Origin: a virus
Reading direction: 5' to 3' (one strand)
Length of the DNA: 24,364 nucleotides
Virus record (IMG/VR): IMGVR_UViG_3300009008_000245
Coordinates: 1 to 24,364 of that record
Numbering within the stretch: position 1 is the stretch's first letter; every line of letters starts with the position of its first letter. The notes under the pieces were generated by a model. That model did no database searches. It was not told the DNA's origin and saw only the letters and a program-made list of their open reading frames with translations. Position numbers and translations under genes: made by a program. Shown in pieces: positions 1 to 11,031 of the stretch.

Positions 1-203
1 AGCCTAAAGTCGCTACTGTACCAACACTTAAATCTACAACAATTCTTGTTAAGCCTAAAGTCGCTACTGTACCAACACTTAAATCTACAACAATTCTTGT
101 TAAGCCTAAAGTCGCTACTGTACCAACACTTAAAACTACAACAATTCTTGTTAAGCCTAAAGTTGCCACTGTACCTAAATTTAAACCCACAACAATTACT
201 GTT
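1..203 (+). repeat. 51-bp in-frame tandem repeat (17-residue unit), about four copies
   Basis: Four consecutive 51-bp units are visible: 1-50 (missing its first base at the window edge), 51-101, 102-152 and 153-203. Units 1 and 2 are identical over the visible bases. Unit 3 differs by one base (Ser to Thr). Unit 4 is diverged, with several silent changes plus changes in its middle. The encoded unit is KPKVATVPTLKSTTILV, rich in Lys, Pro, Thr and Val. The array runs off the left edge, so the true copy number is unknown. Confidence 0.96.
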
Positions 204-1406
204 AGCCCCATAGTTGAAAAAGGTAATAAATCTAGGGATTCCATGACTAAGGCTATAAGCCATCAAGAAGGTATAATGGATCGCCTTTCTAAGAACATAG
301 TTGATCTTTCTTTAAAATATGGAACAACTACTGACTCTATGGTTAAGGCAATTACTCAGTTGTCTGATAATTTTGAACTACTTTCTATTATGGGGGGTCT
401 TGAGACTACTACTGGTGTTACAGCAGAATTAACAGCAAGGCTTGGGCAAGAGAACTCTAAACTGGTAGGAAGCCTAATGAAGGAGCTTACTAGTACTAAT
501 GCAGACCTTAATATGCAAGCCATCCTAGGGGTTGAAAAACTTGGAGATCTGCTGGCTATGGGAAATATAAGCACAGAAGAAGCCATCCAAGGTATTATTA
601 AGGGATCAGAAAGAGCAGCAAATCTACAAAGGGCTGCGTCTAATACTAGTAGACGAGTTTTAGCGGCTACCTTTGGGGGAACTAATAAGTTTCTTATAAG
701 ATTAAGACTTGTAGGAGAAAAATTAGCAGATGCACAGAAACCAATTATTGGCATTTTTGATGCTCTTAAAAGAACTTTAACAGTTATTAAGGAGACTGTT
801 TTCGATCCTTTTAAAAGTGTTGCCGTTGGATTACTTAAACCTTTTACAATGTTAATTAAAGGAATATCTCTTTTGGTAGCAAGTATACTTAATTTGGTTC
901 TTAGAGTTTTCAGCCCCGCAATAGCAGCAGTAATGGAGATAGTAGGGGTTGTGGCTGGTGCTATAGGTTTCGTTGTAATGGGAATTGCTGGTGTAGTTGA
1001 AAAACTTTATGATGTGCTTTCCTTAGTCCCAGGACTAGGGTACTTGTTTGCTGACTCTGATGCAGAGCAAAACTCTTCACTTAACAGTATTAAAAAATTA
1101 TTAGAAACCATGGTAGGAACTGATAAAGACTTACTAGGTATTGCTACTAGTGAGGCAAGGACTAATGAAAAAAATAGGTTGGACACGATCACCGCTGCTG
1201 GTCTTACGGGCATACATATAGAAGCTGCTTTAAGAGATATTGATTTTAGATCTAGGAGGATGGATAACAATAAATCAACTAGTATAGAAAATGCACTTAA
1301 TAAATTAGCAGACTCTACAGATAAAAAAGTTTTGGTTAATGCAATAAGAGAAGTAACACAAGCAATATTTAGTACACAAGAAAGCCCCTATCCAACTGGG
1401 ATTTAG
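1..1406 (+). CDS. Probable tape measure protein, C-terminal part (5' end outside window)
   Basis: This is the C-terminal part of a larger virion protein, most likely the tape measure that sets tail length and fills the tail tube. The frame is open from the first base (first whole codon at 3), so the first ATG, at 243, is probably not the start. Substitutions between the repeat copies at 1-203 are mostly silent in this frame, which supports translation through them. After the repeats comes a mainly helical region with many Ala, Leu and Ser. A long hydrophobic stretch follows at about 849-1058, rich in Val, Ile, Ala and Gly (LLVASILNLVL, VVAGAIGFVVMGIAGVV), then a polar helical tail. Tape measure proteins commonly carry such segments, thought to insert into the host membrane at DNA delivery. 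The gene sits directly upstream of initiator, hub and spike genes, as expected. No peptidase or lytic motif was recognised. It could instead be another long virion protein; the assignment rests on composition and position. Confidence 0.6.
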   Translation, partial: PKVATVPTLKSTTILVKPKVATVPTLKSTTILVKPKVATVPTLKTTTILVKPKVATVPKFKPTTITVSPIVEKGNKSRDSMTKAISHQEGIMDRLSKNIVDLSLKYGTTTDSMVKAITQLSDNFELLSIMGGLETTTGVTAELTARLGQENSKLVGSLMKELTSTNADLNMQAILGVEKLGDLLAMGNISTEEAIQGIIKGSERAANLQRAASNTSRRVLAATFGGTNKFLIRLRLVGEKLADAQKPIIGIFDALKRTLTVIKETVFDPFKSVAVGLLKPFTMLIKGISLLVASILNLVLRVFSPAIAAVMEIVGVVAGAIGFVVMGIAGVVEKLYDVLSLVPGLGYLFADSDAEQNSSLNSIKKLLETMVGTDKDLLGIATSEARTNEKNRLDTITAAGLTGIHIEAALRDIDFRSRRMDNNKSTSIENALNKLADSTDKKVLVNAIREVTQAIFSTQESPYPTGI

Positions 1407-1416: not shown

Positions 1417-2334
1417 ATGGCATTTAGCATAGATCCACATTTAGAAGAAAAATCATTACTCGTTTTTGAGTTTAAGAAGAGAAATGGGGATATTTTTACA
1501 AGGCATCTTAATTTTCTTGAGAACATTGTTGTTGCGGAATCTACAGAAACAAACTACAGCGAGTATACTCCTATAGGCTCTAATGGTTCCATTTTTGCTT
1601 ACTTAGGTGCCAAATCTCGTAAGTTGGAATTAAGTTTTAATTTAACTTTACCTAATATCCAAGAGCATACTCTAGTTAAACCAACAGCATCTGTAGTAAA
1701 AGACAGGGAGGGAATAAAGAGTTCCTATTTTGTGACAGAAAACTTTGGAGACTTTTACAAGAAAGACTCTTATGCTAATCTAACTGGTAACTTTGATACT
1801 GCTTTTCATGATAATCTGACTGATAATGAAAAGAAATTATTTAAGGAGATACATCCTTCATTAGCAAAGGAGGCGTTTCCTGAGGTAATTACCACCCCTT
1901 TCACACCAATTGTAGGAAAAACAAGTAACCCAGATGACTCTAGTAGAATTAAAAGTATTTATCAAGTAATGTATTGGGTAAACTTAATAAGGTCTTGTGT
2001 ACTAACAAATTCAAAAAGACCTTATTTAGGTCCACCTATAGTTACTTTAACTCACGGTATAATGTTTATGAGTGTACCATGTATATGTCAATCTTATAGT
2101 ATAGATAATGATGAGGAAGCAGGCTATGATCCTATAACTTTACTCCCAAGAAGACTAAAGATTACTATGTCTCTTAAAGAAGTAAGGCTAAGGGGTGGTG
2201 ATTTCGCCCCGTCTGAAGGAAGTTCCAGGCTTATGCCAGGGTGGGAGTCCTTGTATGATGAAGATAAGGAAAACGGACAAGGCTATCCTACTATGGATCC
2301 TTTTGATCAAATAGGGGGTATAATATCATTATGA
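1417..2334 (+). CDS. Baseplate tube-initiator / hub-associated protein (gp48/gp54 or XkdP-like role)
   Basis: A 305-residue protein that I assign to the junction between baseplate hub and tail tube, with moderate confidence. The N-terminal part (residues about 10-80) is strand-rich and includes SRKLELSFNLTLP. The C-terminal part (about 205-260) has the pattern GPPIVTLTHG, then a CQSYSID strand, an acidic turn, LLPRRLKITMSLKEV. This order (P-x-V-x-(F/L)-x-x-G, strand, short loop, P-R-x-x-x-(I/V)-x-(M/L)-x-L-x-E) is typical of tail-tube-like folds in initiator and hub proteins of contractile tails. A less conserved, charged middle (about 90-175) separates the halves. The gene follows the probable tape measure gene and overlaps the gp53-like gene by ATGA. 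It could also be a hub component equivalent to a gpD-type protein; no enzyme motif is seen. Confidence 0.55.
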   Translation: MAFSIDPHLEEKSLLVFEFKKRNGDIFTRHLNFLENIVVAESTETNYSEYTPIGSNGSIFAYLGAKSRKLELSFNLTLPNIQEHTLVKPTASVVKDREGIKSSYFVTENFGDFYKKDSYANLTGNFDTAFHDNLTDNEKKLFKEIHPSLAKEAFPEVITTPFTPIVGKTSNPDDSSRIKSIYQVMYWVNLIRSCVLTNSKRPYLGPPIVTLTHGIMFMSVPCICQSYSIDNDEEAGYDPITLLPRRLKITMSLKEVRLRGGDFAPSEGSSRLMPGWESLYDEDKENGQGYPTMDPFDQIGGIISL

Positions 2335-2630
2335 TAGATTCTGGCAGTTTAAGTAGGTATTCTAATGGGGTTATTGGAGTAAAGCATAGAGGGGTTGTAG
2401 TAACCACTTCTGTAGGAACTTTAATGGATGATGTTATTTCTAATATGGAAATATCCTATGAGTATGAGAAGGGTAGAATCCCTATTATGCATTCCAATAG
2501 ACCAGACCTTATATCTGATATATTTTATAATTCTCCTTCCCAATGGTGGTTTTTAATGCACTTCAATGGAGTGACAGATCCTTTTGAAGGGTTTAATTCT
2601 GGTGATCCCATTCTTATTCCAAAGTTATAA
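2331..2630 (+). CDS. Baseplate wedge protein, gp53-like (LysM-like fold)
   Basis: A 99-residue protein. Its C-terminal half carries the signature of the T4 gp53 baseplate wedge family: a site for the structure to 'sit' (DIFYNSPSQWWFLMHFNG), then an N/G-x-x-DP motif (VTDPFEGFNSGDPILIPKL). The pattern W-x-x-x-x-x-x-N-x-x-x-DP...G..I.IP is the LysM-like core of that family. In T4, gp53 clamps wedge to hub at the baseplate centre. T4 gp53 is about twice as long, so this is a minimal version holding little beyond the LysM-like domain. The start ATG overlaps the upstream stop (ATGA), with a G-rich stretch (AGGGGG near 2313-2318) as possible ribosome site. It lies beside the hub gene, which fits its role. 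Confidence 0.78.
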   Translation: MIDSGSLSRYSNGVIGVKHRGVVVTTSVGTLMDDVISNMEISYEYEKGRIPIMHSNRPDLISDIFYNSPSQWWFLMHFNGVTDPFEGFNSGDPILIPKL

Positions 2631-2632
2631 AA

Positions 2633-5158
2633 ATGTCTAAAGTTGATGAAAAATTTAATGTAGGATCCCCGTATGTGTTACTAACAACAGACGAAAAGGT
2701 TACTACTAATTCAGACGCTCAAGAAGACCCTAATTCTGTTCTTCTTACCTTACAAGAAGGGAATTTGATATCTTTCTCTGAGAGAAGGGTATCAGGAGAG
2801 GAAGGTGATTCCTCTACAAAACCCTCTATCTTTATGAAATTTCTAGATCCTGAAATGATATTTATACCTAGGTTTTTTGATCAAAGTTTTGTTAATTTAT
2901 ATAGAAATTATTTTAATCAAATTCGTGAAGCGGTAGGGGGTTATATTACTTATGAGGAACTTGATAAAATAAAGGAAGTAAAAAATGAAACAGAGGTTGA
3001 AAAATCTATGCGCCAGTTAAGAGAGTATAGAGACTCAAGATTAGAAGGCCAAGAGTTTATGGTGGACTTCGTGCCTCAGGGCCAGCTTGTCCGCGCTGTC
3101 GGGGGTGAGTACGATCATGAGGAATCAACAAATAAGCTCTATAAGAAGAGAAAAGACACCAATAGAAAACAAAAATTATTGCTTGACGAAATAACAAAAG
3201 AGTGGAATAATAGAATTGGTGAGAGTTTAACAAGTTTTTGGTTAACATACGGTGACGGTAACGGTACACAAGCTGCCTGGAGAAGATTTGTATTATCTTC
3301 ATTTTTTATATCACAAGATTCTTCAAATAATATGATAATCAATATGACTGCTTCGGAATATCCACTAGATAATGCCGAATTTGGGGTTATGAGCAACTCA
3401 TATACTCTAAAGAATTTTGAAGGGGGTCTTAATAATATTGATAATATTAATCCAAATAATGATGTTATAGTTCCTATATTAGAAATTAGTGAAATGTCAT
3501 CAAACAAGCCTAGGATTAATCACAACACTGGGGTCGGGGCCAGCGTGATAAGAAATTGGTTTAGAACCTCTCTGCATTGGATTTCTGAGATTGTTAGTTA
3601 CGAAGAAGACTTAGTATTAAGTTTATTAGAAAATCTATATCAAAAATTCTTAAAGACTTATTCTGGAAAAGGTGTATTGCCTTTTGTTTTCTTATCACCT
3701 AAAATACCATCTTTACTTAAAACAAAAATAGATGAAATTTTGGAAAATACTTTAAAAGAGATAGGCCAAGTAGGAACTCATCTTGAAACAGTAATGAGAT
3801 TTCAAATTTTACAATCCATCCTAAATTCATGTGATATAACTACCCGTAGGTCTATACCTGCGGTATCCCCTACTCCTGATGTAGCTGACTCGGTAATTTA
3901 TTATTTAACAATCCTAAAAGAATCTACTGTAACTGCCGAAGATACAGTATTGAATTCTATTAGAAACTTGTATACCTATTTAGGTATATCTGAGGGTGGT
4001 TATCCTATGGATAATGTAGACTATAGATCCCTTGTAATATCTAACGAAAAGCACAAAAGACTTTTCTTAAAGCAGTTTTGCGTATTTGATAAAGGAGAGT
4101 ACAAAAATACTTATATAATAAGGAAAGATGTTCAGGAAAAACTAGGAGTTAAAGTAAAGGATAGTGAAATAAATAAATACATTATAATAGTTTATACTGA
4201 TTATGTGCTAGGTAATGGGTTAATAATCCCTTTCTCCCCTGGCTATTCAAATGAAATATTAAAAATATATACTGAACGGTTAAAAATCCCTTTTAAAGAT
4301 TCCCCAGTCGGAGTTATGAACTCTAACGCATATAAATTTTTATATGGAAATGAGGATATAACGAAGTATATTAGGGAGGTTTCTGAAATTTATGATATCA
4401 ATAGTCATACAAAAACCACTTTCGATTATTCAAACGAAGTTAATGAATTAAAAAAACTAGAATCACTTCCAATATTTATAGCTAATAGAAAAAACTCTAA
4501 TGTTTTTGATGTTGTGAGTACAGAAAAGACAACTGGTTTTGGTAATTTGTTGTCACAGTTTGAACTTATGCAAAAAGGGGCAGAAATAACCCTAAGTAGC
4601 ATACTTTCTAACCCTCTTGAGGAGCAGGTTCTTGATTTTTCACCAGAGAAGTTCGATAGATCTATAGAGTCTTTTTTAGAAAAAGCTTATAAAAATAACG
4701 CAGCATCACATACTTTGTTACTTGCATTAGGAGAGTTTACAGATAATGATAATGTTGATGAAACTGTTAAAAAACTTTTTAAATCTATAAAAACAGAAAC
4801 TAGAAGTATGATAGAAAGCTCTAATTATGTAACTGATAGAAAAATTAATTACCTTGGGTTGACAGCCCATCTTAATTATATTCAAAGCTTATCTAATACG
4901 GCCGCTACTGTATCAGTTAAAACTGTTCCTTTTTTTAATTTACACTTTCCTATTATTTTAGGTAAACCATGTTTATTTTTAAATAATACTAGTTTTCACG
5001 CCCTTACTAGAGGTATACCAATAGCAGGGTACTTAAGTGGTGTATATTTAGTATCTGGTTATGAGCATTTCATATCAGATAGTGAATGCTATTCAAAGTT
5101 TACTATACAAAGGCAAAAATTATTAACCGATACTGTTAAATCATTACATCAATCATAA
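2633..5158 (+). CDS. Large baseplate hub protein (gp27/GpD-like C-terminus)
   Basis: An 841-residue protein with a start two bases after the gp53-like stop. I assign it to the central hub mainly from its last 80 residues: a strand FPIILGKPCLFLN, a loop, GVYLVSGYEHFISDSECYS, and a final KFTIQRQ strand. The pattern 'G-x-Y-x-V-x-G-x-x-H-x-(I)...(Y/C)-x-(T)-x-(F/L)-x-(L/I)-x-R' closes many hub proteins (gp27, gpD and VgrG N-terminal relatives). Its position just before the spike gene agrees. The N-terminal half contains a charged helical region (residues about 105-185, KIKEVKNETEVEKS, NKLYKKRKDT) and many Ile/Asn-rich segments that I do not recognise. It is about twice the length of T4 gp27. Two short GC-rich islands (3062-3120 and 3529-3549) interrupt otherwise AT-rich DNA. 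No lysozyme or peptidase motif was identified. Confidence 0.6.
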   Translation: MSKVDEKFNVGSPYVLLTTDEKVTTNSDAQEDPNSVLLTLQEGNLISFSERRVSGEEGDSSTKPSIFMKFLDPEMIFIPRFFDQSFVNLYRNYFNQIREAVGGYITYEELDKIKEVKNETEVEKSMRQLREYRDSRLEGQEFMVDFVPQGQLVRAVGGEYDHEESTNKLYKKRKDTNRKQKLLLDEITKEWNNRIGESLTSFWLTYGDGNGTQAAWRRFVLSSFFISQDSSNNMIINMTASEYPLDNAEFGVMSNSYTLKNFEGGLNNIDNINPNNDVIVPILEISEMSSNKPRINHNTGVGASVIRNWFRTSLHWISEIVSYEEDLVLSLLENLYQKFLKTYSGKGVLPFVFLSPKIPSLLKTKIDEILENTLKEIGQVGTHLETVMRFQILQSILNSCDITTRRSIPAVSPTPDVADSVIYYLTILKESTVTAEDTVLNSIRNLYTYLGISEGGYPMDNVDYRSLVISNEKHKRLFLKQFCVFDKGEYKNTYIIRKDVQEKLGVKVKDSEINKYIIIVYTDYVLGNGLIIPFSPGYSNEILKIYTERLKIPFKDSPVGVMNSNAYKFLYGNEDITKYIREVSEIYDINSHTKTTFDYSNEVNELKKLESLPIFIANRKNSNVFDVVSTEKTTGFGNLLSQFELMQKGAEITLSSILSNPLEEQVLDFSPEKFDRSIESFLEKAYKNNAASHTLLLALGEFTDNDNVDETVKKLFKSIKTETRSMIESSNYVTDRKINYLGLTAHLNYIQSLSNTAATVSVKTVPFFNLHFPIILGKPCLFLNNTSFHALTRGIPIAGYLSGVYLVSGYEHFISDSECYSKFTIQRQKLLTDTVKSLHQS

Positions 5159-5159
5159 T

Positions 5160-5163
5160 AGGA
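5160..5163 (+). promoter_or_regulatory. Shine-Dalgarno AGGA for the spike gene
   Basis: AGGA sits in the 14-base spacer after the hub stop codon and 9 bases before the ATG at 5173. This is one of the few genes here with its own intergenic ribosome site. Confidence 0.65.
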
Positions 5164-5172
5164 AAATAAATA

Positions 5173-6246
5173 ATGAAATTACTAAAAGCAAAAGTTACAA
5201 GTACTTTGAATCCCTCTAATAATATGACAATACCAGCAGAGTTATTAAGAGAAAAAGAACCTATTAATGTATTTTACACATCTCCTTTTAATTCAATACT
5301 GCCTGGGCAGGGAGGGTTTACAGCTTACCCTCGTAAGGGGGATGTTATACTTGTAGCTACTACCGATGATGGAAGTGCTGTTGAATATTTCTATATATCG
5401 ACCATTATAGGTTCGGCACTTGGGCATAAAGGTGCTTTACCTAATTATCCAAAAGGGTCTACTAAGTTTCTAACAGGAAACTCGTATAAAGATACCGTTG
5501 GAATACGGGATCACCATGATGGAGGTATAGAATTTGTTTATGAGAATAGTGAAGGGGGAGACCTTGGGGTAACTAGGAGAAATTATGCTGAGTTTTACGC
5601 AGGTAGTAATAAAATAAAGTTAGGTAGAAGCTCTAGTACTGGTGGGGTACTTTTACAAACTGGTACTGAGTCTCCTAGGGTCGTTTTAAAAATGTCTGGG
5701 CAAAAGAATATTTTTGGACAAGGGCCTAATGCCTTTGTTGTTAAATCATACGGAAACATGATTTTAAAATCTACTATAGGAGAAATAACCATATCCAATT
5801 CCGTTGACGGTAATACAATAAATATACAAAATAAAGCTAAAAGGGATGTTGACGGTTCTGATATATTTAACCCTTTTAATAAAAAGAAGGGGGATATTTT
5901 ACTTGAAAGTTGGCATAACACTGTTAATATAAATGCTAATGCAGCTAACCCACTTGCACCAGAAGCAAAACCCGCCGTATTTGTAAGAACTAACCCAGCA
6001 CACGGGACAGGGGTTGTTCAGCTAAAAACAGGAGGTAGAATTGAGATTGTATCTGATGGCAGGGTAGCAAATGTAGGAGTTGACCAAAGCAGTGGTAAAA
6101 TCATGATATGGGCCTCTAATGGTATAGATATACATGCAGAGACAGGAGATATTAATATATCTGCTCCTGGAGGCAAGGTTAACTTGCAGCCAGTTACCCC
6201 TGCGGGGGCAGGCTTCATCCCAAAACAAGACAATAAAAACATATAA
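5173..6246 (+). CDS. Baseplate central spike protein (gp5/GpV-like, no lysozyme domain)
   Basis: A 357-residue protein that would form the trimeric membrane-piercing spike beneath the hub. Residues about 30-80 fit an OB-fold (INVFYTSPF, GDVILVATTDDGSAVEYFYIS), as at the N-terminus of gp5, GpV and VgrG spikes. From about residue 130 the chain becomes short repeated strands: NKIKLGRSSSTGGVLLQTG, NMILKSTIGEITISNS, then GKIMIWASNGIDIHAETGD and INISAPGGKVNLQP. This is the register of an intertwined beta-helix needle, similar to the gp5 C-terminal prism. The lysozyme domain that T4 gp5 carries between these parts is absent. The last 17 residues (Pro/Gly/Lys/Asn-rich) are presumably the tip or the binding site for a tip protein; no separate PAAR gene is seen in the window. 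The stop overlaps the next start (TAATG). Confidence 0.8.
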   Translation: MKLLKAKVTSTLNPSNNMTIPAELLREKEPINVFYTSPFNSILPGQGGFTAYPRKGDVILVATTDDGSAVEYFYISTIIGSALGHKGALPNYPKGSTKFLTGNSYKDTVGIRDHHDGGIEFVYENSEGGDLGVTRRNYAEFYAGSNKIKLGRSSSTGGVLLQTGTESPRVVLKMSGQKNIFGQGPNAFVVKSYGNMILKSTIGEITISNSVDGNTINIQNKAKRDVDGSDIFNPFNKKKGDILLESWHNTVNINANAANPLAPEAKPAVFVRTNPAHGTGVVQLKTGGRIEIVSDGRVANVGVDQSSGKIMIWASNGIDIHAETGDINISAPGGKVNLQPVTPAGAGFIPKQDNKNI

Positions 6247-8993
6247 TGCCTATTAATCCTTTAAGCACTGATTGGTTAGTTGGAGTTCCTCTTGGGGCAG
6301 GGACTCTTCCTACTTTTGGTTTACCTCCATGTATTTTCAATTTAGGAATGGAAATTTTACAATTATTGCCTGGGGATGCTCTTGCTGCTTTATCAGCAGG
6401 CATAAATAAAGGTATAATTGCAGCGCAAACTGCTGCCCAAGGTGTTAAAAATTCTATTTTTGATTTAATAGGTATGGAGGATATAGACGGGGATGGAACA
6501 TACGAGTGGGGGTTAGATTCAGGTTTAGGAGGTTTAGGCTCCTTCATGGATGGTCTTTTGGGTGCTGTAGGGGCAGGTATTGGGTTTATACAAGAAGCCC
6601 AATCAACTATAAATGCCACTATAGACGAAATTAACGACATTATAGCATGTTTAGAGTCCTTCAGGAGTCAGGTAGCAGACAGCATAACTACTGACCCTGT
6701 TTCAAATGCTCAAACAGAGGCTTATTTGTTTGAGCAAGAAGTTATTTTAGAGCAATGTTCTCAATTTATAGATAAAGCTATAAATTTATTGGAGATGATT
6801 GGTTCTGTTATAATTGATAGAAAAAATGGGGTTATATTCGACCCAGACAGCGATACTGAAGAAGAGGGGGAGTTATTTAGATTAACTTTCGGACCTCCTG
6901 AAAGCAAAAATGGTTCTTTTCTTTTATCAATAGATGGTCTTTACTACAATTCACAGACTAGGGATTATTTTGGTGGATCTGAAGTACCTACTTTAGCTGA
7001 TATTAGTGGGTTGGATTTTGTGCCTGACACTTCAAAGTGGAAATTGGATCATTCCCCTAACTTAGGGGGTAAAGGAACTAAAGTATCTTTAGGGGATATA
7101 GACAATTACATTGGTACTCTTTTCGATATTGAGATACCTGATGATAGTGAATTCCTACAAGAACATTATAACGCAGATCATACTTTAAGTGTTCTTAAAG
7201 GGAATAAGTCTAAGATTATAACTGATATGGAAAGGGATAAACAGAATTTAATAGCTTCTGGGTATGATGCCACTTCTGCCGTTATTCATAACATTCAACA
7301 AAGTATATTTGCTGAGATAGAAACCTTTGACAGAAAGATTAGAAAAAGGAAAAAGCAGATAGAAGTTGCTGTAAAAGCCTACGACCTATTTGGGTATGAT
7401 AAAACCTTCCCACCAGGAAAAATACCAGTAAATGATTTCAGTTATTTATCTAATTTAAACTTGGAGGTAGGGTTCCAGAAGCAGAAGAAATTGGTTTTGG
7501 ACCATGGAGAGGTAAGTGGGATCATCCTACCAGTTAAGCCTATATTTGTTAGGCAAGTAACAAAAGCTCACACCTTTTCTTTAACACCATTAAACATAGC
7601 TCCTATAGGGACTGGGGTGTTTGCTGATGTACCTTCCGCTAGTTCCACTATAATGCCTGCATTAACTATTTCAGATGCAATATCTAAGGATAATTTAGTG
7701 GCTGTTTATAGCTTTTTAGATGCTAAGGTAGAATCCCCAAATTCTACAGCAACTAATGTTATTAGCTGTAATAATGATTCAACTCAGGACGCACAATTAG
7801 TAGGTAGATCTCCATCAGAAGTCTTCTCTCAAGGGCTTGGTATACCTTTACTTGATGGGGTAGTATCTTTTGAAGCGTCTGGGTCTTTACTACAACCTAC
7901 CGATGTAGGAAGTTACCTTAGACTTCCCAGCAGTAAAAGAATGCAAGACTTAATGTTTAATACTAGGGGATGTTCTTTTGATTTCTGGTTGCATATGCCT
8001 AAAGGGTTTGCTCAAGGTTATAATAGGTTTGAGAAGAGAACATTACCAGCACCAACAGGAAACTCACAAATAAATGAGGATTCAAAAGGGGCTTGGCTTG
8101 ATTATAATTACTATAAACTTATATTAGCTAATGAGAATACAGGTGGGTCTTATACAGGAAACCCTGATATTATGCCTAGAAATAAGAATAGTGATACTGT
8201 AAGAGGTATGGTTATGGGCTTTACTAGGGATCCTCAAATGAAAACTATAGGGACTACCACCTCTAGGGGTAGTGATATAGACATTTCCTTGAATTACCCT
8301 GGTGTGGCAAGCGATGATACTACTTCAAGTTTCGCATTCTTTATAGCCCCTACACAATCAATACAGGATTCAAATGGTAATAATTCTGTTGAGTTTATTA
8401 GGTCAGGTTCGTGTGAGTCTACTTTAACAACTTTTGATTCCATGATTGTACCTCATACAAGGCAAACCGCTTCTGGGTATACTTTTGGGGATCTATCGTC
8501 TACTTATGTGCATATGAATGTTTCGTTTGATGTACAAAATGACCTTATTAGCGTATATCTCAATAATGAGATATTGGCAACAGAATCTTTAAGCACTACT
8601 TTTGGAACAGAATACAAAACACCTCCTAGAGTACCTTCCTTCATTAGCACAGGGGATAATTCAAGTTTTTATTATTCCGAAGTTAATGTTAATACTAGTG
8701 CTACTTCTGTATTTGATAATGGACCAAGTAATGACACCTTCTTTACTCCTTGGATTATTGGTGGTGGGTGGACTGACGGAACCCCTATAACTTACTCTAC
8801 TAGCTCAGGAGGCTTTATGGGTAGTACTTCTATTGGAGGGTCTGCCTCTGTATTAGGGTCTCACGGGTTTAGCAGTGCTTTGGGGGGTAGAGTAGGAAGC
8901 TTTAAAATTTATGATAAACCACTAGATACAAAGGAGATAACTACTAATTATAATGCTCATAAGGCATTCTTCCAAAACATTAAGATTCAATGA
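6246..8993 (+). CDS. Large baseplate-associated protein with C-terminal LamG/concanavalin-like module
   Basis: A 915-residue protein of unknown exact role. Residues 1-145 are Gly/Ala/Leu-rich and partly hydrophobic, and include DIDGDGTYEWG (79-89), which fits a DxDxDG calcium-binding loop. Residues about 120-190 and 320-380 look helical or coiled (KRKKQIEVAVKAYD). Residues about 484-912 read as a LamG-type jelly roll: AVYSFLDA, then GSYLRLP, CSFDFWLHMP, YVHMNVSFD, ISVYLNNEILA, and finally GGRVGSFKIYDKPLDTKEI. The last segment matches the 'G-x-(I/V)-x-x-F-x-I-Y-(D/N)-x-x-L-x-x-x-E-I' ending of LamG domains. Such modules bind carbohydrate in many phage and bacterial proteins. The gene lies between spike and gp25-like genes and overlaps both (TAATG at 6246, ATGA at 8990), so the product probably attaches to the baseplate. 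The N-terminus may be the docking region; that is inference. Confidence 0.6.
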   Translation: MPINPLSTDWLVGVPLGAGTLPTFGLPPCIFNLGMEILQLLPGDALAALSAGINKGIIAAQTAAQGVKNSIFDLIGMEDIDGDGTYEWGLDSGLGGLGSFMDGLLGAVGAGIGFIQEAQSTINATIDEINDIIACLESFRSQVADSITTDPVSNAQTEAYLFEQEVILEQCSQFIDKAINLLEMIGSVIIDRKNGVIFDPDSDTEEEGELFRLTFGPPESKNGSFLLSIDGLYYNSQTRDYFGGSEVPTLADISGLDFVPDTSKWKLDHSPNLGGKGTKVSLGDIDNYIGTLFDIEIPDDSEFLQEHYNADHTLSVLKGNKSKIITDMERDKQNLIASGYDATSAVIHNIQQSIFAEIETFDRKIRKRKKQIEVAVKAYDLFGYDKTFPPGKIPVNDFSYLSNLNLEVGFQKQKKLVLDHGEVSGIILPVKPIFVRQVTKAHTFSLTPLNIAPIGTGVFADVPSASSTIMPALTISDAISKDNLVAVYSFLDAKVESPNSTATNVISCNNDSTQDAQLVGRSPSEVFSQGLGIPLLDGVVSFEASGSLLQPTDVGSYLRLPSSKRMQDLMFNTRGCSFDFWLHMPKGFAQGYNRFEKRTLPAPTGNSQINEDSKGAWLDYNYYKLILANENTGGSYTGNPDIMPRNKNSDTVRGMVMGFTRDPQMKTIGTTTSRGSDIDISLNYPGVASDDTTSSFAFFIAPTQSIQDSNGNNSVEFIRSGSCESTLTTFDSMIVPHTRQTASGYTFGDLSSTYVHMNVSFDVQNDLISVYLNNEILATESLSTTFGTEYKTPPRVPSFISTGDNSSFYYSEVNVNTSATSVFDNGPSNDTFFTPWIIGGGWTDGTPITYSTSSGGFMGSTSIGGSASVLGSHGFSSALGGRVGSFKIYDKPLDTKEITTNYNAHKAFFQNIKIQ

Positions 8994-9442
8994 CATTAAC
9001 TACTTATGGAACTCTAGCACCCTCTAACACCCGTGAAATTGTCAAGGATATTCTGGGATCTAAATTTATAGGACTTAGACTTCCCATAGGATCAGGAAAT
9101 AAACTTTTTTCAAAATCAACGGACAATGAGGTTTTAGTAGGTCAAATAAGACAGTTAGTTTATACCGTTCCTGGGGAACGGGTAATGCTTCCTACTTTTG
9201 GTTTAAACTTAAATTCATATTTATTTGAGCCTCTAACTCCTCAATTAATTGATGAAATTAAAAAAAAGATACAAAATCAGTTTTCAAAATACATAGAAAA
9301 TGCTGTAATATTAAAAATTGTTGTTTTTTCTGAAGAGGTAGATGACCCTTTTGCTTCTGCAAGCTTACCTACAATAATAATTAGACTGTCTGTAAGAAAT
9401 AAGGAAAATAATCAGACGCTACCTTTGGAGTTTACAATATGA
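8990..9442 (+). CDS. Baseplate wedge protein gp25-like (GPW/gp25 family)
   Basis: A 150-residue protein with the conserved core of the gp25/GpW family: QIRQLVYTVPGERVM followed by LPTFGLNLNSYLFEP (residues 53-81) and a long amphipathic helix. The E-R-x-x-x-P-x-F-G-x-x-L...LFEP motif is diagnostic. In T4, gp25 sits at the wedge centre, contacts the first sheath ring and helps template sheath assembly; it was once thought to be a lysozyme but is structural. The length is close to that of T4 gp25. The start overlaps the upstream stop (ATGA) and the stop overlaps the gp6-like start. The order gp25, gp6, gp7 is that of T4 and of the P2 W-J-I cluster. Confidence 0.93.
   Translation: MTLTTYGTLAPSNTREIVKDILGSKFIGLRLPIGSGNKLFSKSTDNEVLVGQIRQLVYTVPGERVMLPTFGLNLNSYLFEPLTPQLIDEIKKKIQNQFSKYIENAVILKIVVFSEEVDDPFASASLPTIIIRLSVRNKENNQTLPLEFTI
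9427..9430 (+). promoter_or_regulatory. Shine-Dalgarno GGAG for the gp6-like gene
   Basis: GGAG lies inside the end of the gp25-like gene, 8 bases before the ATG at 9439. With the ATGA overlap this points to coupled translation of the two wedge genes. Confidence 0.6.
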
Positions 9443-11031
9443 CAAATATTCCCTACACAACTGTTTCCTCTGATTTCTTAAAGTTAATTTTATTCAAGGA
9501 TGATGATAAATCAAATCTTATAGATTTTGCTGCTACTGATTTTTTGTCCCTTAGGGAGTCTTTAATTAATTATATTAAGGCTGTATATCCTTTGGACTAT
9601 AACTTGTTTTCTGAATCTGATTTAGGAATGATGTTTATAGAATTGGTATCCTATATGGGAGCAGTTCTTTCTATGAAGGCTGATATGCTTGCTCATGAGT
9701 CTTTTTTAAAGACTGCTAAAAATCCAACTAATATTAGAAAGCTTCTTCAATTAATTGGGGTAAAATTTAGAGGACCTAGTTCAGCCGCAGCACAGACTTT
9801 AATTACTTTAGAAGGTGGACCCCTTTCAACAGGAGAATCTATAACTATCCCAGTAGAAAATAGGGTTTTTTCAAGAACTTCAGATGTTGATGGAGCTACG
9901 GTAAATTATGTTTTGTATAAAATACAAAATGGTAAAATACTTGATATTGATAGTAGTAATAATATTGAATTAACTTATGCTGAATCTGATGATACAAATG
10001 GGCAAACATGGACCAATGTGGTTTTGGTAGAAGGTACTTTAGTTGTTGATACTAATACATTTGCAGATGTAGATGTAATTAAATCTGTATCTTTAACTAA
10101 CTCTCCTGTAATTGATGGGAGTGTTGAAGTTTTTATTGATACAGGGGATTCAGCAACATCAAACCCTTATAAGGAAGTTCAATCTCTTTTGTCAACTTCA
10201 TCATCTGATCAATTAGCGTTTGAAGTAGTTTATAACCCAGATTTTTCAGTAAAGGTTCTTTTTGGTGATGGTATTACTGCCTCCTTACCACCTGTTGGGT
10301 CAACATATACAATAAACTATAGAGTAGGTGGTGGTATTAGGGGTAACGCTTCTACTGGGGCTATTAACGAGAATACAACAACTGCTGACACAAAAACTAT
10401 AAATGTTACAAACATTCTACCTTTTACGGGTGGTTTAGATTCTGAAAGTATTGAGCATACTAAAAAATATTCCCAATTAACTTTTAAACAACAAGATCGT
10501 CTAGTTTCATTAGATGATTATATTTCATTTTCTAATACTTTTAAATCATCTACTGGGGCTTCTGGTAAGGCTATAGCAGTTACAAGAGATGCTTATAGTT
10601 CTGCTAATATTATTGATGTTTATATTGTTGAGAAGGCTTCCAACACTCAACTACAAAAAGCGTCTATAGCATTTAAAGGTGATCTCTTAGATGAAATGGA
10701 GCCCAAAAAGATGATGACAGATGAGCTTGTAATTGTAGATGGTCTTATAAGAACTATTGATATTGTTGTTCAGCTTACTGTAGATACAAAATTTCAAAAT
10801 AAAGAGGCATCTATTAAAGCTAATGCGTCAAGAATCGTTTTAGATTATTTCAATGTATCAAATAGAGAATTCGGGGAAAGCTTCTTTCCTCAAGATATTT
10901 CAAGAGAAATTTTTACAGCTATACCAGAGGTAAGGTTAGCGGAAGTTACCAATTATGAAAAACCCATAACCTTAGAGTTTAACGAAATTCTTCAGTTAAA
11001 TAACTTTAACATAACTCTTAACTATGTCTAA
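9439..11031 (+). CDS. Baseplate wedge protein gp6-like (baseplate J-like)
   Basis: A 530-residue protein of the gp6/J family, whose dimers form the ring of wedges around the hub. Residues 60-120 hold the N-terminal signature: SDLGMMFIELVSYMGAVLSM, a helix with AHESFL and TAKNPTNIRKLLQLIGV, then Ala-rich AAAQT. The middle carries the J-like core, FGDG at 275-278 followed by PPVGSTYTINYRVGGGIRGN, which matches 'FGDG-x(n)-P-x-G-x-x-(I/V)-x-(V/I)-x-Y-R-x-G-G-G-x-x-G-N'. The C-terminal part (about 400-530) has alternating strand and helix with PQDISREIF. It is shorter than T4 gp6. It overlaps the gp7/I-like gene by 8 bases, the largest overlap in the cassette. Confidence 0.9.
   Translation: MTNIPYTTVSSDFLKLILFKDDDKSNLIDFAATDFLSLRESLINYIKAVYPLDYNLFSESDLGMMFIELVSYMGAVLSMKADMLAHESFLKTAKNPTNIRKLLQLIGVKFRGPSSAAAQTLITLEGGPLSTGESITIPVENRVFSRTSDVDGATVNYVLYKIQNGKILDIDSSNNIELTYAESDDTNGQTWTNVVLVEGTLVVDTNTFADVDVIKSVSLTNSPVIDGSVEVFIDTGDSATSNPYKEVQSLLSTSSSDQLAFEVVYNPDFSVKVLFGDGITASLPPVGSTYTINYRVGGGIRGNASTGAINENTTTADTKTINVTNILPFTGGLDSESIEHTKKYSQLTFKQQDRLVSLDDYISFSNTFKSSTGASGKAIAVTRDAYSSANIIDVYIVEKASNTQLQKASIAFKGDLLDEMEPKKMMTDELVIVDGLIRTIDIVVQLTVDTKFQNKEASIKANASRIVLDYFNVSNREFGESFFPQDISREIFTAIPEVRLAEVTNYEKPITLEFNEILQLNNFNITLNYV

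Follow-up and report, generated by a model that had tools for sequence, protein, structure and literature searches.

Tandem repeats are an established feature of some phage tape measure proteins (TMPs). Repeats of 11 or 18 residues are described for the lactococcal phages TP901-1 and p2 and for Clostridium, Bacillus and Staphylococcus phages (PMC3271669, PMC5099701, PMC8616913), and the units are marked by Trp or Phe (PMC3271669, PMC5099701). The TP901-1 study reports that tail length tracks the residue count of the TMP, that the exchange of one repeat for alanines left infectivity intact, and that some repeat deletions abolished plaques (PMC5099701). For Basilisk-like phages, it is reported that tail length is not always in step with the length of the TMP gene (PMC6145125).

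The window analyzed here is an entire virus record of 24,364 bases, IMGVR_UViG_3300009008_000245, with a tail/baseplate module on the plus strand. It opens within a 51-bp tandem array that probably represents an in-frame spacer insertion in the TMP of an uncultured contractile-tailed phage. On our best reading, the spacer is lineage-specific, expanded by slippage and disordered, and consists of 17-residue units rich in Lys, Pro, Thr and Val.

The repeat array and the two contigs that carry it

TRF reports a 51-bp unit over window positions 1 to 204, with 4.0 copies visible, 93% match, 0% indels and a score of 338; by unit comparison, the array encodes, on the plus strand, 17-residue units of type LKSTTILVKPKVATVPT. 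Per 51 bases, copy 2 shows 0 mismatches to copy 1 (positions 1-51), copy 3 shows 1, and copy 4 shows 9. These counts bear out the original prediction of exact 51-bp in-frame units, the first two identical, the third changed at one base and the last diverged. In codon register, two identical full units (0/51 mismatches) occupy 27-77 and 78-128, and a third full unit, LKTTTILVKPKVATVPK, occupies 129-179 with 5/51 mismatches to the consensus unit. A diverged last unit (FKPTTITVSP...) and the non-repeat 3' flank of the insertion fill 180-257, just short of the conserved core; all of these lie on the plus strand. Self-identity at lag 51 is 0.93 for 1-204 and at most 0.40 for any 204-base stretch starting past base 300. 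The largest value obtained from 10,000 base shuffles was 0.42, and a chance origin of the repeat is therefore ruled out.

An open reading frame at 3-1406, 467 residues long and open at its 5' end, reads through the array in phase. The array is stop-free also in frame +1 and in two frames of the minus strand, so openness alone is no proof of coding; the array is taken as coding because its frame is continuous with the TMP core on both sides. Because the window starts within the array, total copy number is not readable from the window.

Searches with the repeat-unit and terminal-unit patterns, which are weak for diverged copies, found one other viral contig with the array, L079 (IMGVR 3300009008_000374), and the repeat pattern hit 0 stretches in the genome collection. 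The minus strand of L079 carries a 193-residue frame that runs off the contig end and contains, in order, 133 TMP core residues, a 12-residue flank, and the units FKPTTIAVTPKVATVPT, LKSTTILVKPKVATVPR and FKSTTILVKPKVAT, here called L1-L3. Units in the window are called W0 (partial), W1-W3, and W4 (partial). The two arrays have an exact stretch of 68 bp in common; a pattern for the start of the insertion in L079 gave 0 matches in the window.

Genes 5' of the TMP on L079, of 446, 237, 303 and 150 residues, stand in the same order as in the record of L007, in which an unbroken TMP frame is followed by the same 3' genes as in the window. Identity to the record of L007 is 78%, 83% and 79% for the 237-, 303- and 150-residue genes of L079, 66% for the N-terminal part of the TMP (from L079), 64% for the C-terminal part (from the window) and 75% for the 305-residue protein encoded next to it. 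G+C content is 34.9% in L079 and 35.3% in the window. Tetranucleotide correlation is 0.975 between the window and L079 and 0.982 between the window and L007; as the latter is slightly better, composition is no proof of a single virus. Probably, a single gene of one species is split between the window and L079, with the break falling in the array on both contigs, but the two may come from different strains, with no contig among those seen spanning the array.

The units begin with Phe in L1, L3 and W4, and with Leu in L2 and W1-W3. Relative to W1, L1 has 7 mismatches per 51 bases and W4 has 20, and the central units are nearly identical, so the uniform centre and diverged end noted at first in the window recur at the other end of the array. 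The motif FKPTTIxVxP is common to L1 and W4 and absent from the other units. L1 and W4 may descend from one end-type ancestor, which is a suggestion only, because over the whole unit L1 is nearer to W1 than to W4 (15 mismatches). None of L1-L3 is identical to any of W1-W3. L3 agrees with the partial W0 at all 17 shared positions (0 mismatches), and the two may be the same unit. If both contigs derive from one virus, the array has at least seven units (L1, L2, L3/W0, W1, W2, W3 and partial W4), the insert is at least about 140 residues long, and the TMP, with a core of 133 + 382 residues, is at least about 655.

Identity of the gene and its point of insertion

The gene with the array lies between a T4_baseplate/hub-like gene, seen on L079, and gp53-, gp25- and gp6-like genes, seen in the window. 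The upstream gene matches T4_baseplate PF12322 (E 1.7e-17) and the baseplate hub family phrog_150 (E 1.6e-17), a part of the context that rests on L079 being the other half. Immediately 3' of the array gene, at 1417-2334 on the plus strand, is a 305-residue tail-module protein, found also in relatives and without a Pfam or PHROG match. There follow, all on the plus strand, a gp53-like baseplate wedge protein at 2331-2630 (phrog_232, E 1.1e-4; PF11246, E 0.0054, under the Pfam cut-off), a gp25-like wedge protein at 8990-9442 (phrog_261, E 3.6e-16; PF04965, E 3.3e-9) and a gp6/baseplate-J-like wedge protein at 9439-11031 (phrog_219, E 7e-35; PF04865, E 0.011, under the cut-off).

The gp6-like protein, used for finding relatives, has 77 related loci in IMG/VR; among 50,697 named phage records it matched 144, all distant at less than 60% identity. 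A host search with the gp6 alignment against contigs of the genome collection gave 74 stretches, 0 of them confirmed. Window positions 1417-8993 encode four proteins (305, 841, 357 and 915 residues) without a Pfam or PHROG match at E <0.01, of which the 915-residue protein is matched by 69 of 79 loci compared. For the relative of the 305-residue protein in L011 (record G009:C1:27837-28208, minus strand), one TGA lies within the stretch that matched; this TGA could be a sequencing error, a match extending beyond the stop of the gene, or recoding.

The protein with the array is long, predicted to be mostly helical, and has a hydrophobic segment, as in TMPs. The hydrophobic stretch covers residues 273-342 of the 467-residue frame (819-1028, plus strand), where 19-residue Kyte-Doolittle windows exceed 1.6. 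Against Pfam and PHROG the window protein has no family match at E <0.01 and no match to a tape-measure profile; two weak hits, endolysin (phrog_971, E 0.013) and Peptidase_S66 (E 0.068), were regarded as noise. Profile matches come instead from relatives. Among the 26 members scanned (alignment A3: 25 of the 28 relatives described below plus the N-terminal part from L079), PF06791 TMP_2 matches two, with a best E of 1.5e-4 and 21.9 bits against a cut-off of 30.2, and each of eight PHROG tail length tape measure families is matched by between one and three members, with E from 4.1e-5 to 0.0082. In a Foldseek search of viral structures the four leading matches carry the name tape measure protein, with E values from 0.011 upward and low TM-scores.

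Because of its position in the module, the helical prediction, the hydrophobic stretch and the weak tape-measure matches of its relatives, the gene, originally called a probable TMP, is now very probably one. There is little chance that it encodes some other large helical tail protein or an internal virion protein. Such a reading would accord with the lack of a family match for the window protein and with weak matches of single relatives to families other than tape measures, among them internal virion protein (E 0.0073) and head scaffolding protein (E 0.0095), but the TMP_2 and tape-measure PHROG matches, the flanking baseplate genes and the leading Foldseek matches all speak against it.

The C-terminal 382 residues of the TMP, starting SHQEGIMD, are encoded at 258-1403 on the plus strand and are 64% identical to the TMP from the record of L007 over 386 aligned positions; the insertion boundary is at 257/258. 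When the window and L079 halves were aligned, each in a row of its own, with 28 related TMPs, the insertion mapped to one column, preceded by ...ATG(G) and followed by SHQE. The insert is absent at that column from 28 of the 28 relatives (4 close, 24 wider). The TMP from the record of L007 crosses the point uninterrupted, as ...IIATG/SHQED..., and the codon phase at entry into the array is identical on the two sides. A first protein alignment (A1), which set the array opposite the N-terminal core of the relatives, was taken as false and left unused.

The 28 relatives comprise 25 distinct sequences at 90% identity. Identity to the reference is only 12-25% for the 24 wider ones, most of which were called TMP from gene order. 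By tblastn at E 1e-3, the TMP core of the window matched only L007, L006, L066, L010, L040, L054 and L028; for relatives without a match, the TMP was taken as the long frame immediately upstream of the relative of the 305-residue protein. Of 28 records searched for that protein, 24 were used: those of L008 and L067 had no match, and those of L016 and L029 start too near the gene to show the TMP. TMP starts were set at the first Met of the stop-to-stop frame, and the frame of L110 is 5'-open. Three near copies (L094, L097 and L105) were omitted from alignments A2 and A3, which leaves 25 of the 28 relatives in each.

An exact-peptide-pattern search for relatives of the window TMP returned 24 stretches with 0 confirmed, and overlooked relatives at 64% and 45% identity. 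The TMP, the 305-residue protein, the N-terminal part from L079 and the TMP from the record of L007 had no match among the 50,697 phage records, which thus yielded no cultured relative. A search for other strains carrying the N-terminal part gave only the L079 contig itself and the record of L007, and a close-alignment search for further TMPs gave three matches, all known already, and overlooked the record of L010.

Structure, origin and possible effect of the probable spacer

Structure was predicted with AlphaFold2 for the window TMP and for its closest relative, the TMP from the record of L007; both models are weak overall, with pTM of 0.43 and 0.39, respectively. In the window model, residues 1-74 have pLDDT <50 and neither helix nor strand, with blocks over 1-70 at pLDDT 27-36. 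Residues 77-457 are nearly all helix with mixed confidence, including one helix of 82 residues (228-309), and 141 of the 467 residues, the array included, have pLDDT <50. The array is thus predicted, with very low confidence, to lack secondary structure, a result that fits the flexible linker proposed originally; its low pLDDT may be due in part to the lack of aligned relatives over this stretch. In the model of the relative, the insertion site (393/394) lies within a loop, 391-395, that joins helices 379-390 and 396-414, and 10-residue blocks over 381-410 have pLDDT 90, 77 and 93. By sequence, no solved structure in the PDB matched, and a PDB fold search with the model of the relative gave only generic helical proteins among the matches listed, at E 0.044 and worse.

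We propose that the insertion arose at this loop between two helices of the conserved TMP core, and that its units multiplied by slippage or unequal recombination, the centre staying uniform as the ends drift. Diverged ends around a near-identical centre are what slippage or unequal exchange should produce, and since 51 bp is a whole number of codons, units can be gained or lost with the gene unbroken. No allele with a different copy number was found, so the expansion is inferred from one array. The spacer would part the 133 core residues at the N terminus, which L079 shows, from the other 382, and would give the chain a greater contour length. Should the chain run stretched through the tail tube, additional copies might lengthen the tail, an effect raised also in the original prediction; this is a guess and a somewhat doubtful one. 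The behaviour of TP901-1 supports in-line reading of the tape in general. The Basilisk-like phages, in which tail length can be independent of TMP gene size, mean that sequence alone permits no claim about length.

The same anatomy could have a different meaning. The array may be a looped-out and nearly neutral insertion, with growth by slippage tolerated in a disordered loop and with no effect on tail length or infection; we give this a real chance, though one well short of even. An insertion inside a confidently predicted helical region may loop out and so add no tail length, and the position in a short loop, between two core helices modelled with confidence, would favour such an arrangement. 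Also in its favour, the pattern searches of viral contigs found the array in one virus lineage only, and the TMP of a close relative has an array of unrelated sequence in another place, as would be expected if several sites were tolerant. On the other side, the reading frame has been kept. Of the codon differences of L1, L2, L3 and W3 from W1 (W4 omitted), 5 are synonymous and 8 are not, counts that point clearly in neither direction.

A more ambitious version of the spacer reading, in which the array is a tunable module for length or reach, with disordered 17-residue units gained and lost at one permissive loop, we consider unlikely. Were it true, tail length or the reach of the N-terminal segment would be adjustable, and a population could carry a ladder of tape lengths. 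TMPs are regarded as helical rulers, and a disordered, readily expanded array in a core loop would offer a natural test of whether every extra residue counts, or whether only residues in line with the helical ruler add tail length.

It is quite improbable that the array is the edge of a larger mobile element, such as an intein or an intron that carries a homing endonuclease, interrupting the TMP gene. A sharp insertion point, the ending of both contigs in the array and a stretch between them that lies in no contig seen are all as such an element would have it. The shared codon phase on the two sides argues against it, however, as does the lack of any intein or endonuclease domain in the visible parts by Pfam. 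A long identical tandem array is by itself sufficient to break a short-read contig, and an expandable array is a simple reason for both contigs with the gene to break off at one position. That the array is an assembly or chimera artefact, the circumstance named at the outset as fatal to it and suggested by its location at the extreme end of both contigs, is rejected as very improbable: the two contigs, whose samples are perhaps not independent, approach one site in the gene from its opposite sides, their units differ yet are related, and the frame is continuous with the conserved core on both sides.

Comparison with other repeat-containing tape measure proteins

We ran TRF on the 28 other TMP genes with a score threshold of 40. 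Large arrays occur in one of them (L088, scores 239-560), and six others have short repeats only (scores 40-60). The gene with large arrays belongs to a close relative, in the record of L010 (L088:203-2827, minus strand; IMGVR 3300038307_000134), so tandem arrays are found elsewhere in the same clade: 63 bp x2.4, 108 bp x2.2 with identical copies, and 165 bp x2.0. They differ from the array of the window in that they are unrelated in sequence, rich in Ser, Thr and Asn, and located in the C-terminal part rather than in the core loop.

The closest relative, the TMP from the record of L007 (L086:1452-3788, minus strand; 779 residues from the first Met), has neither the 51-bp array nor the insertion. 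Like the window TMP, it has a low-confidence stretch, in this case Pro/Gly-rich and upstream of the core, at residues 114-250. That stretch contains 9-bp micro-repeats and is absent from the much shorter N-terminal part on L079. Upstream of the TMP in the same record, L086:9666-10691 (minus strand) encodes collagen-like Gly-X-Y repeats (GATGASGATGAQGIQGIQG). Pro content over 60 residues reaches 0.18 in the TMP from the record of L007 and at most 0.13 in the window TMP.

The original prediction held a Pro-rich, non-helical array to be unusual in a helical TMP. The rest of the protein is indeed predicted to be helical, but the array is less unusual within its clade than was claimed, because of the more Pro-rich stretch in the record of L007 and the Ser/Thr/Asn-rich arrays in that of L010. 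The clade tolerates disordered or repetitive TMP segments at more than one place, and the array in the window is a striking example.

In the open-licence literature searched, we found no report of a 17-residue Pro/Lys/Thr array in a TMP. The array resembles the described 11- and 18-residue repeats in being made of in-frame tandem units within the tape gene that likely change by gain and loss of whole units. It differs from those Trp/Phe-marked repeats in its period of 17, in the absence of Trp from the units seen, in a composition rich in Lys, Pro, Thr and Val, and in the predicted lack of secondary structure. It differs also in being inserted at a single core loop, with the core unbroken in the 28 relatives examined. 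Tandem repeats in TMPs are thus known, and what is new here is the 17-residue Lys/Pro/Thr unit and its place in the core loop.
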